Positions 52,323 through 59,606 of a DNA stretch of 64,000 nt are shown here, one piece after another. Both the position numbers and the translations under genes were made by a program. The stretch is from Deferribacteraceae bacterium V6Fe1 (GTDB lineage Bacteria; Chrysiogenota; Deferribacteres; Deferribacterales; Deferrivibrionaceae). The stretch spans positions 248,001 to 312,000 of the forward strand of contig CP063375.1 of NCBI GenBank assembly GCA_022813675.1, read 5' to 3'. The notes under the pieces were generated by a model. The model did no database searches. It was not told the DNA's origin and saw only the letters and a program-made list of their open reading frames with translations. The stretch's first letter is position 1, and each line of letters opens with the position of its first letter.

Positions 52323-52721
52323 CTATCTACCGGTTATAGCCGTTTTCAGTTTTGTAAACTGATAACCTGTCAACTGAGACAACTCCGAATACAAAACTCC
52401 ATTAGCTGATAATTCATACATTTCCAAATCTAAATTTACATCATTTCCATCATTCCTCAATGAAGGGCTATTCCTGAACTCGGCACTTACAAAACCTGCA
52501 CCGCTTCCACCTCGAATATGCTTCTCGTCTGTAGTTTTAAGTGATAATTTTTGCCCACCAGAAAAATATTCCTGCATAGCTTTTTCAAAATCTATATTTT
52601 TTGCCTTATAGCCGGGCGTATCTATGTTTGCGATATTTTCAGCGATTACCTTATTTTTTAAGGATGATACGTTTAGTGCCGCACTCAAATCATTTATCAA
52701 ACCGGTGTTTAAAAATTTCAT
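52323..52721 (-). CDS. flgB: Flagellar basal-body rod protein FlgB
   Basis: 132 aa from the ATG at 52721, which is preceded by CAGGAGG; the frame extends to 52751, but the extra residues do not fit the family. NKVIAENIANIDTPGYKAKNIDFE is the rod-protein motif. First gene of the flagellar run, with a sigma-54-like element upstream. Confidence 0.94.
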   Translation of the reverse strand: MKFLNTGLINDLSAALNVSSLKNKVIAENIANIDTPGYKAKNIDFEKAMQEYFSGGQKLSLKTTDEKHIRGGSGAGFVSAEFRNSPSLRNDGNDVNLDLEMYELSANGVLYSELSQLTGYQFTKLKTAITGR

Positions 52722-52746
52722 ACCTACCTCCTGATGCAAAATTATT

Positions 52747-52763
52747 ATCAAGATTCATGCCAA
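52747..52763 (-). promoter_or_regulatory. Sigma-54-like promoter of the flagellar operon
   Basis: Minus strand TTGGCATGAATCTTGAT matches the -24/-12 pattern TTGGCACG-N4-TTGCW with correct GG-to-G spacing, but the -12 C is A. The predicted start is about 15 bases before the flgB ATG. Confidence 0.5.
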
Positions 52764-52832
52764 ACAGTTCAATAAACATCAAAATCGATAAGTATAACTT
52801 TTTATTGCTAAATCCTCTTTTAGTTTGTAATT

Positions 52833-52842: not shown

Positions 52843-55236
52843 ATGGAATTTTCAGACAGATATATAGCAAAAGACTTTTTGGGTGATTCTCCTGCCGGCA
52901 AATATTTTACCGGCGAGGACAAGAAATTTAACAGAAAGGTATTAATCAAGATTCTTGAAAATACTAATGAAGACATTGAGAAGCGTTTTGATAGCCTGAC
53001 AAAGCTCTCAGGACAGCTTATCCATCCCAATATTTTAACCACAATTGATTATTTTAAAACGGAAGATAAACTTGTTTCTGTCCATGAATATATTGACCCA
53101 AATCGCACTATACTTGATTTAAAAAAGATTTCTTTATTATCTGTGCAGGAAAAGCTTAAAATTGCAATAAATCTTGCTGATGCAATAGACTTTTGCCATA
53201 AAATTGGTTTTTTCCATAATAACATTTTGATGGATTCCCTTTACCTTAGTGATAATGTGAACATAAAAATAGACCATTGCGGGCTAAAGAGGGTAGTAAA
53301 AAATGAAACTCTTTACAGCGAGCTCGGGATTGAATCTAAAACACCACTCTTTTACCCGCCTGAATACTTTAAAAAAAGCTATGATCATTACCCTGTGGAT
53401 ATTTTTCAGTATGGCTGTTTCCTCTATACGCTTTTTGTCGAAATTTACCCTTTTGGAGAAGAAATTTCCGAAGAAAATATAAGAAAATTAAAAAATCTTG
53501 ACTATTTTGACCCGTCATGTTTTGCAGATGTAAACAAAAATATCATAAATATCATTAAAACATGCCTTAACAAAAGCCCAAACGAACGATTTAGAAATTT
53601 CACTGACATACTGTTTGAACTTAAAAATGCTGAAGATGAAAAAAAGATTAAAACCGCCGGTTACAGTTTTAAAATTAAAGATAACAAAGCTTTTATGATC
53701 GTGCCGAAAGGGTACAAAGCTGATATTGATGAGATAGAAAAAAAGCTTATAGACCAAAATATCTACAACTACAATATCGATAAAATCAAGTATGCTGTTT
53801 TACACTCCAATGGGCAAGAAATTGAAATAGGTGAAAATTTTAAAAAAATTGACACAAAGCTTTTTGAACATACTGAGATTGAAATTAACAAAGATGCGAC
53901 AAAAGCATTTTTCGTAAAAAAGAAAAATTTAGCATTAACCCCAGAGGAAATAATCTTTATACTAAAGAAAAATGGTATCAGGCATGGAATATTATATGAA
54001 AATATACAAAAAATTATAAATGCCGAGCCGGACCAATCAATTCTAATTGCAGAAGCGACTCCCCCCGAAGACGGCCTGGATTCTTATTTTGTCTATTTTT
54101 TTGAAAAGGATAATCTGTTCAAACCGACCATTGAAAATGATATCGCCGACTTTAAAAACATATTACTATTTCAGGAAGTGAAAAAAAATGAAATCTTATG
54201 TCTGAAAATACCATTCACTTTGGGAAAAAACGGAAAAGATGTTTTTGCAAGACCTATAAAAGCTAAACCTGGAAAAGACTTTAAATTACCCGCTGGCAAA
54301 AACACATACATTTCAAGTGACGGATGCAAGTTGATGTCCACTATTGACGGACTTATAGAATACCAAAATTCAAAAATAAATGTTAAGGAAGTGATAATAA
54401 TTCACGGTGATGTGGATTACTCTACAGGCAATATAAAATATCACGGAGATGTGATAATAAAAGGGGATATCCTTCCGGATTTTTCAGTTAAAGCCGGTGG
54501 TGATATTAAAATATTCGGTGTTGTTGAAGGTGGATATATTGAGTCTGAAAAGGGTTCGATTTTGGTAAAATCTGGGATATTCGGCAAGGAGAAATCGGAA
54601 GTAATTGCTTTTAAAGATATTGACGCTGAGTTTATACAGGACTGTAAAGTTGTAGCGGGGCAAGATGTAAATGTGAAGGACTATGTCAGAAATTCTAACA
54701 TAACTTGCGGTAGAAGCTTTATTTGCACAAAAGGTATCGGACAGGTTGACGGAAGTATGATTTACGCAAAAAGATTTATTCTGATTAACATAGCAGGGAC
54801 AAAGCCTTATGTAAAAACATCTCTAATCATTAACAGACTCGACAAATTTAAACTTAAATCTGAAAGAACAGAGCTTTTGGAAAAATTAAAAACAGTAGAA
54901 AATAGTATCATCACTGTTAAGAATAACCTTAAAAATCTTATTATTAAACATGGTGATATAGAAGATTTACTTATGAACAGCGAATATAAGCTTTTATCCG
55001 AAAAATTAAAACTGCTTGAAGATTTATCAAGCTCCATTAACGAAAAATTGAAAATAAACGAAGACAATATAGAATATGTAAACTCACTTAACAATGAATT
55101 CATTGCAATAAAAAAAGCAATCTATCCCGATATTATATTGAGAATTGGAAACCTTTCATTTAAAAATGAAGAGGAGATATATGGCAACATCAAAGTAGAA
55201 ATAGAAGAAGGGCAAATAATTTTGAAGGTGAAATAG
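52843..55236 (+). CDS. Pseudokinase-FapA (DUF342) fusion protein
   Basis: 797 aa. Residues about 5-260 have a protein-kinase fold: a degenerate glycine loop (LGDSPAGKYFTG, 13-24), VLIK with the ATP-binding lysine K36, HPNIL (61-65), a hinge, a PPE segment (172-174) in place of APE, VDIFQYGC (185-192) and a terminal Arg (NERF, 247-250). Both catalytic aspartates are missing: HRDLKPxN reads HNNILMDS (N127 for the catalytic Asp) and DFG reads HCG (H145). This indicates a pseudokinase. Residues about 270-660 are a full FapA/DUF342 domain with GKDVFARPIKAKPGK, GKNTYISSDGCKLMSTIDG, HGDVDYSTGNIKY and the beta-helix repeats VKAGGDIKIFGVVEGG. The C-terminal part (660-760) is coiled coil. FapA is linked to flagellar assembly in some bacteria. 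There is no Shine-Dalgarno. A single base separates it from the MoaE-like gene. It is divergent from flgB. Confidence 0.88.
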   Translation: MEFSDRYIAKDFLGDSPAGKYFTGEDKKFNRKVLIKILENTNEDIEKRFDSLTKLSGQLIHPNILTTIDYFKTEDKLVSVHEYIDPNRTILDLKKISLLSVQEKLKIAINLADAIDFCHKIGFFHNNILMDSLYLSDNVNIKIDHCGLKRVVKNETLYSELGIESKTPLFYPPEYFKKSYDHYPVDIFQYGCFLYTLFVEIYPFGEEISEENIRKLKNLDYFDPSCFADVNKNIINIIKTCLNKSPNERFRNFTDILFELKNAEDEKKIKTAGYSFKIKDNKAFMIVPKGYKADIDEIEKKLIDQNIYNYNIDKIKYAVLHSNGQEIEIGENFKKIDTKLFEHTEIEINKDATKAFFVKKKNLALTPEEIIFILKKNGIRHGILYENIQKIINAEPDQSILIAEATPPEDGLDSYFVYFFEKDNLFKPTIENDIADFKNILLFQEVKKNEILCLKIPFTLGKNGKDVFARPIKAKPGKDFKLPAGKNTYISSDGCKLMSTIDGLIEYQNSKINVKEVIIIHGDVDYSTGNIKYHGDVIIKGDILPDFSVKAGGDIKIFGVVEGGYIESEKGSILVKSGIFGKEKSEVIAFKDIDAEFIQDCKVVAGQDVNVKDYVRNSNITCGRSFICTKGIGQVDGSMIYAKRFILINIAGTKPYVKTSLIINRLDKFKLKSERTELLEKLKTVENSIITVKNNLKNLIIKHGDIEDLLMNSEYKLLSEKLKLLEDLSSSINEKLKINEDNIEYVNSLNNEFIAIKKAIYPDIILRIGNLSFKNEEEIYGNIKVEIEEGQIILKVK

Positions 55237-55237
55237 T

Positions 55238-55633
55238 ATGAATCTAAAAGTTTATCTGACCGAAAAAAATATCGACTTTATGAAAGAGTATGATAATTTT
55301 TATGAAAACTTGGACGACTCAACCGGGACAATTTTAATCCACCACGGCAAGGCAAAATACCCCGGAAAATATGTGAAAGATTATACCGAGATAAGCCTTT
55401 TTATAAAGGACGAAAAGGCTCTTGAAGCTTTAAAAGCTGAATCCGAGAAAATTTACAGGCAATATAATCTAAACAAACTCTATGTAATTCACAGAATAGG
55501 CAAAATTAAGAAAAATGATTCTATACTATTTTTGGCATGCGAAGCAAAAGACAGAAACTCAGCTTTTGACGGAGTAAGAGAGCTCTTGGAATTTATAAAA
55601 GCTGAAAATCTAATCGGATTAGAAGAGATTTAG
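55238..55633 (+). CDS. MoaE-like protein with altered C-terminus
   Basis: 131 aa. The fold and the hallmark VIHRIGKIKKNDSILFLACEAKDRNSAFDGVRELLEFIKAEN match MoaE, the large subunit of molybdopterin synthase. The family usually ends PIWKKE, where one lysine is catalytic; here the end is NLIGLEEI, so that lysine is absent. The lysine in EFIKAE remains. No moaD or other cofactor gene is nearby. The start has AAGGTGAAATAGT just before it, so it is translated with the FapA fusion. It could be a true divergent MoaE or a repurposed one. The 3' end lies in a hairpin shared with fabI. Confidence 0.7.
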   Translation: MNLKVYLTEKNIDFMKEYDNFYENLDDSTGTILIHHGKAKYPGKYVKDYTEISLFIKDEKALEALKAESEKIYRQYNLNKLYVIHRIGKIKKNDSILFLACEAKDRNSAFDGVRELLEFIKAENLIGLEEI

Positions 55634-59051: not shown

Positions 59052-59606
59052 ATGATATTAACTTTAGATAAAAGCATTGAAAAACTAATTTGCGAGCTTC
59101 CACCATGTATATTCAAGTTCAAATATATCTTAAATCGGAGGTGGCCATTTTTATACCCTCACCGCAGAGAAAGGGTCGCAGACATCATTATTATGAGGGA
59201 GATAAACAAGTTTAATGTAAATATATGCGATTTACTCGATAATGAAAATCACCGTAAAGAAATAATTTTTACCGTACCAATTATCAATGTAATAGAGGCG
59301 TTGATTTTTGAATACGGAAATCAGGAAAAAATATTCGAAAATATTTCTCATGGGTTAGCACTCTACAGGCTCGCATCTGAAGGTATAATCACAGGGAGCT
59401 TATCGACAAAAATACGCAGTCTATATTTCTTAAGGGATAAGATCCTGAATGATAATTATTTTGGAAATATGTGCAAATACAACATGCCTTGCAACTATTT
59501 TGAAGCAAATACCACACTTGTAGAGCTTGAAAACTCACTCTTCTTACACTTCAAAGCCAAGAGAAAAAAAGATACCTACTTAAAGTTTCAAGAGATATTT
59601 ATTTAA
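59052..59606 (+). CDS. Hypothetical protein, unrecognised family
   Basis: 184 aa, soluble, AT-rich codon use, no signal peptide and no membrane segment. It carries an R/K-rich stretch (HRRERVADIIIMREIN, about 37-52), which could contact nucleic acid, and a mid-part dominated by helices (TVPIINVIEALIFEYGNQEKIF). Three cysteines near 144-150 (MCKYNMPCNY) are notable. I see no catalytic signature. It is the only gene on its strand between ruvB and the efflux operon, with a good promoter and no Shine-Dalgarno. It is probably real given the promoter and full-length frame, but no homology was recognised. Confidence 0.6.
   Translation: MILTLDKSIEKLICELPPCIFKFKYILNRRWPFLYPHRRERVADIIIMREINKFNVNICDLLDNENHRKEIIFTVPIINVIEALIFEYGNQEKIFENISHGLALYRLASEGIITGSLSTKIRSLYFLRDKILNDNYFGNMCKYNMPCNYFEANTTLVELENSLFLHFKAKRKKDTYLKFQEIFI

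Follow-up and report, generated by a model that had tools for sequence, protein, structure and literature searches.

The gene at 52843–55236 of the window (the whole 64,000-nucleotide stretch that was analysed) encodes a complete FapA/DUF342 protein (residues ~270–797) preceded by a PrkC/PknB-like kinase domain (residues ~1–265). This pairing is real and conserved and, within the genomes surveyed, is confined to one bacterial phylum, Deferribacterota. The catalytic motifs of the kinase domain were lost in all ten members of the family, as expected from the original prediction of an inactive kinase. We favour, at a probability of roughly 0.6, a pseudokinase that docks without catalysis and is carried by a FapA paralogue specific to this lineage, where it would position or gate FapA, probably in flagellar assembly or placement. 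The features of the locus, in window coordinates, are listed below.

52323–52751, minus strand: flgB, divergent, followed on the minus strand by flgC, fliE, fliF, fliG and further flagellar genes
52843–55236, plus strand: kinase–FapA fusion gene, 797 aa, ATG start (open reading frame list, Pfam and ten family members)
52843–53637, plus strand: pseudokinase domain with PrkC/PknB-like fold, residues 1–265 (Pfam, PDB sequence matches, AlphaFold/Foldseek)
52948–52950, plus strand: codon of K36, the beta-3 (VAIK) lysine (in the alignment, Lys in 8/10 and Arg in 2/10)
53215–53238, plus strand: former catalytic loop, residues 125–132, HNNILMDS (signature H-x-N-x-x-x-D-S)
53272–53283, plus strand: former DFG region, residues 144–147, DHCG (D144, the position before DFG, invariant)
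53314–53364, plus strand: family-specific activation segment, residues 158–174, SELG...P...PPE (conserved across families)
53638–53874, plus strand: region preceding FapA_N, residues 266–344 (alignment with kinase-less FapA proteins)
53875–54369, plus strand: FapA_N domain, residues 345–509 (Pfam)
54391–55218, plus strand: FapA/DUF342 beta-solenoid and C-terminal part, residues 517–792 (Pfam)
54844–55083, plus strand: coiled-coil helices in the FapA model, residues ~668–747 (secondary structure of the full-length model)
55238–55633, plus strand: moaE for the large subunit of molybdopterin synthase, one base downstream of the fusion gene (Pfam)

Three Pfam families were matched above their curated cut-offs in the 797-aa open reading frame, namely Pkinase (residues 10–250, E = 5.6e-24), FapA_N (residues 345–509, E = 1.9e-40) and FapA (residues 517–792, E = 1.6e-55). 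All three were matched in constant order in the ten family members, and by domain content all ten, the window's protein among them, belong to FapA (PF03961/PF20250). Beyond the kinase part, Pfam matches were confined to the FapA families, apart from a weak one to MinC_C within the solenoid; no PASTA part was detected by Pfam in the fusion protein. Alignments with kinase-less FapA proteins from elsewhere began at about residue 250–280 of the fusion. The original prediction had described a DUF342 domain and a coiled coil; the FapA portion proved complete, but the coiled coil falls within the C-terminal FapA Pfam model and does not constitute an extra module.

The kinase fold proposed for residues 1–265 was recovered from sequence and from a structural model. 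A sequence search of the PDB with the kinase domain gave 1,072 distinct chains at E ≤ 0.001, those listed being kinases. The best match of the single sequence was Staphylococcus aureus PrkC/Stk1 (3e-16), and that of the family profile was 4eqm (E = 5.7e-35), with Mycobacterium tuberculosis PknB also near the top. The AlphaFold model of residues 1–273 (pLDDT 66, pTM 0.70) retrieved only kinases among the Foldseek matches listed (TM 0.55–0.72). The full-length model, with a pLDDT of 55.5, was of poor quality, its C-terminal part being the better predicted. Confidence of the models was low or moderate; together with the Pfam and PDB results, they indicate a bilobal Hanks-type protein kinase fold.

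The full-length fusion was found in ten genomes, including that of the window, which belong to four families among the 51 Deferribacterota genomes searched. A first scan of genome contigs with the single protein as query gave no match, and a scan with the alignment as query gave three orthologues, all from Deferribacterota. Kinase domains shared 33–93% identity with that of the window in the pairs measured. In a tree of 44 FapA cores, the ten fusions formed one clade (support 100/100, one label change) separate from the two other FapA types of the phylum.

The wider survey took in a diverse set of 385 genomes, three small phyla (14, 3 and 7 genomes) and two large ones (300 and 399 genomes). 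No other kinase–FapA fusion was seen in these ~1,100 genomes, although a weakly matching one could have escaped; for the 385-genome set, the absence rests on the stronger matches listed and on a reading of 20 long-frame regions. No fusion carrying an active kinase was found in the ~1,100 genomes either, which removes the objection, foreseen in the original prediction, that active versions might be common among FapA proteins, and every FapA examined outside the fusion clade was kinase-less, in agreement with the view that known FapA proteins lack such a domain. In searches with the A1 profile, every FapA match began near fusion residue 250 or later, and kinase-only matches were other proteins. 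Long FapA frames of other genomes (~650–1281 aa) were considered as candidate fusions, and none had a kinase domain. By sequence, many of these frames look like tandem FapA solenoids, as in the very long proteins (~1,050–1,280 aa) of L059–L068, L072 and L073, or like FapA with a Jag_N-like start, as in L050, L069, L070 and L078, where a Jag_N/KhpB-like N-terminal domain is apparent by eye. Such starts suggest that the N-terminus of FapA is a site of accessory-domain swapping. Kinase-only matches of 800–900 aa in the phylum of genome G332 were likewise rejected as fusions; HRD and DFG were intact in those read, and the one seen in full sequence carried further domains ahead of the kinase and lacked FapA. 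The best-matching kinases found, also from that phylum, kept both motifs, as did a genuine kinase in genome G025, from the same phylum.

The active site of the fusion is heavily altered. Gap-free alignment to active kinases placed K36 at the VAIK lysine, N127 at the HRD aspartate and H145 at the DFG aspartate, which confirmed both predicted aspartate substitutions. An alternative gapped alignment, in which D144 would be the true DFG aspartate, was rejected because the DFG Phe position and the following Leu align without gaps; active relatives aligning identically also spoke against it. In all ten members, the HRD position was Asn, position 145 was His, Asn or Phe (triplets HCG, HFD, NFN, NFD, NFG and FFD, the third position being Asp in five), the helix-C Glu was replaced by Leu, Ile, Tyr, His or Phe, neither the Lys nor the Asn of the catalytic loop was kept, and the glycine loop was degenerate. 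Neither the pair of HRD and DFG aspartates nor the pairing of the beta-3 Lys with the helix-C Glu, the marks of an active Hanks-type kinase, is therefore present. Since these losses are shared by the ten members, being a pseudokinase is a fixed trait of the clade rather than a single-strain lesion. H125, N127, D131, S132, D144, E174, D186 and R249 were invariant, including the fold residues D186 (the alpha-F Asp), E174 (the PPE Glu) and R249. Judged from sequence, phosphotransfer is lost and ordinary ATP–Mg binding has very probably been lost as well.

The original prediction had taken the kept ATP lysine as a sign of nucleotide sensing. The lysine is indeed retained in the window and in 8 of the 10 members, but it is Arg in two (G009 and G023), and with the other nucleotide and catalytic residues lost in all ten, that reading is weakened. 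In its general form, it holds that non-catalytic binding of ATP or another nucleotide changes FapA and so gates flagellar assembly. Position 36 is always basic, D144, N127, D131 and S132 are invariant, and precedents exist: models of bacterial DYD pseudokinases, in which beta-3 Arg and absence of the helix-C Glu also occur, still include ATP, and POMK relies on a rewired salt bridge to bind ATP (PMC12599244). The loss of the glycine loop, helix-C Glu, catalytic-loop Lys and Asn and DFG Asp in 10/10, however, together with the replacement of the DFG Asp by three different residues, argues against nucleotide binding by the domain, and families that have lost all three motifs nearly always lack ATP binding (PMC12599244). 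We regard nucleotide sensing as unlikely and retain it in view of the known rewired nucleotide sites and the strict conservation of the altered site. The invariant H125, N127, D131, S132 and D144 and the basic position 36 could mean that the pocket retains a ligand or rewired chemistry. That this former active site has taken on a new function in ligand binding or catalysis, by which it switches FapA, seems rather unlikely; if it were so, motile bacteria without a recognisable active Hanks-type kinase would use a dead kinase fold for direct control of flagellar assembly.

The gene was predicted to lie divergent from a flagellar operon, which is true of the window, where ~91 bp separate the starts of flgB and the kinase–FapA gene. 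This neighbourhood does not serve as general evidence for a flagellar role, since it was found only in the window's genus (G000, G012 and G013), the other seven fusion genes lying elsewhere. In those places, the fusion adjoins an HDOD-like gene (family f2), moaE (f3) or sdh-like genes (G023), all named by eye; in G006, fliE lies at a distance of ~27 kb, and in G010 and G023 it is on separate contigs. At L036, L038, L040 and L041, of the four Calditerrivibrio-type (f2) genomes, HDOD-like and small lipoprotein-like genes are convergent to the fusion. No sigma-54 promoter was found in a search before the fusion gene, and sigma-70 matches in the region exceeded those in shuffled sequences only modestly. 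Upstream of flgB and facing it, a sigma-54-like element, TTGGCA-N6/7-TTGATAA (window 52740–52790, minus strand), was seen, with likewise elements at L034 and L035; its -12 reads GA instead of GC, and it is conserved in three species of the genus. Elsewhere in the window, a 184-aa open reading frame (59052–59606) without a Pfam match shows 83–84% identity in the genus's two other species.

A flagellar role is suggested by membership in the FapA family, by the tracking of flagella by FapA in the phylum and by the f2 genomes that have no other FapA. The fliE gene was present in 47 of the 51 phylum genomes, and G014 and G016, without fliE, gave only weak FapA matches; within the phylum, the occurrence of FapA almost coincides with that of flagella. 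In the four f2 genomes (G006–G009), all of which have fliE, the fusion is the only FapA. The fusion might instead serve a process unrelated to flagella, for example one tied to moaE, which directly follows it only in families f1 and f3, is the sole moaE of those genomes and, in the window, is probably co-transcribed with the fusion gene. The restriction of flagellar neighbours to one genus and the two kinase-less FapA paralogues that the window's own genome carries besides the fusion would fit this explanation. On the other hand, moaE lies at other locations in G006, G008 and G023, and none was found in G009 (99% complete), where the fusion is kept, and both the association of FapA with flagella and its sole representation by the fusion in f2 tell against it. 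We consider a non-flagellar role quite unlikely.

The strict conservation of the altered signature (H-x-N-x3-D-S and D144) across distantly related members could also point to an unusual enzyme whose rewired site has other transferase chemistry, as in SelO (AMPylation) and SidJ (glutamylation) (PMC12599244). These enzymes keep their metal- and ATP-binding residues, whereas the DFG Asp and catalytic-loop Asn of the fusion are lost, and no substrate or partner gene was conserved alongside the fusion, which makes such chemistry very improbable. That the kinase domain is a decaying, non-functional passenger on FapA, as the loss of all catalytic motifs might imply, is strongly disfavoured by the selection test and has a virtually negligible probability, given kinase-domain dN/dS values of 0.039 (G000/G012) and 0.058 (G006/G007), similar to those of the FapA part, and a full-length domain in four families with its fold residues kept. 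The activation segment, a normally variable region, has a motif kept across the four families. The low dN/dS, the fold residues and this new motif together indicate selection on the kinase domain, which, with its kinase fold and missing catalytic motifs, is thus a bacterial pseudokinase.

The loss of nucleotide and catalytic residues alongside a preserved fold and activation segment favours a binding module. Docking in particular is favoured by two known cases. Vibrio FapA is controlled by protein binding, in that dephosphorylated EIIA-Glc binds it and HubP recruits it (PMC6877527 and titles cited there), and the EssB/YukC pseudokinase recruits parts of a secretion machine non-catalytically (PMC9600267; PMC12599244). 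In the docking mechanism that we propose, a FapA paralogue of Deferribacterota would have acquired an N-terminal Hanks-type kinase domain once, and the domain would then have lost phosphotransfer and, very probably, ordinary ATP–Mg binding. With its preserved bilobal fold and its activation segment, the domain most likely binds a partner protein, and this binding would recruit, position or gate the FapA beta-solenoid as non-catalytic docking or scaffolding. The probable target would be flagellar assembly or its placement at the pole.

The Pfam kinase model reached its cut-off in 15 of the 51 phylum genomes, and in each of its ten genomes the fusion is the sole Hanks-type kinase domain above that cut-off; one further match, in the four f2 genomes, falls far below it. 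Since no other kinase reaches the cut-off there, a Hanks-type kinase is an unlikely partner. Acting as the allosteric helper of an active kinase is a role often proposed for pseudokinases, and for the same reason it does not come easily to the fusion.

The architecture is new and its parts are known. The fusion shares FapA_N, beta-solenoid and coiled-coil C-terminus with FapA/DUF342 proteins of Vibrio vulnificus, V. cholerae (VCA1085) and Borrelia (BB0267), and differs from them by ~265 residues of N-terminal pseudokinase and its own paralogue clade. PrkC/PknB-type Ser/Thr kinases, such as S. aureus Stk1/PrkC and M. tuberculosis PknB, have the same fold and are the closest solved sequence matches, but the fusion has no PASTA part and has lost all catalytic motifs. 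EssB/YukC of type VIIb secretion is likewise a bacterial pseudokinase with degraded motifs, one that works by recruiting machine parts, but it sits in the membrane, belongs to another system and has no FapA part. Degraded VAIK, HRD and DFG motifs are also common to the DYD, CP1, ActPs, DLHK and GLW families, whose named partner domains (COG3899, PQQ and helicase), compared by the review's descriptions, differ (PMC12599244). The fusion has neither the DYD motif, with its second Asp pairing with the beta-3 Arg, nor the linked COG3899 domain of CP1. The text of this 2025 review of bacterial pseudokinase families, which treats a 42-family atlas, does not mention FapA, DUF342, the flagellum or Deferribacteres (PMC12599244), and no report of a kinase–FapA fusion was found in the literature searched, which comprised freely accessible papers and this review of the atlas.

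FapA proteins occur widely, and how they act is poorly known. A FapA that carries its own protein-interaction domain would offer a handle on FapA binding partners, and in the Calditerrivibrio-type genomes, with the fusion as their only FapA, its flagellar role would be directly testable.
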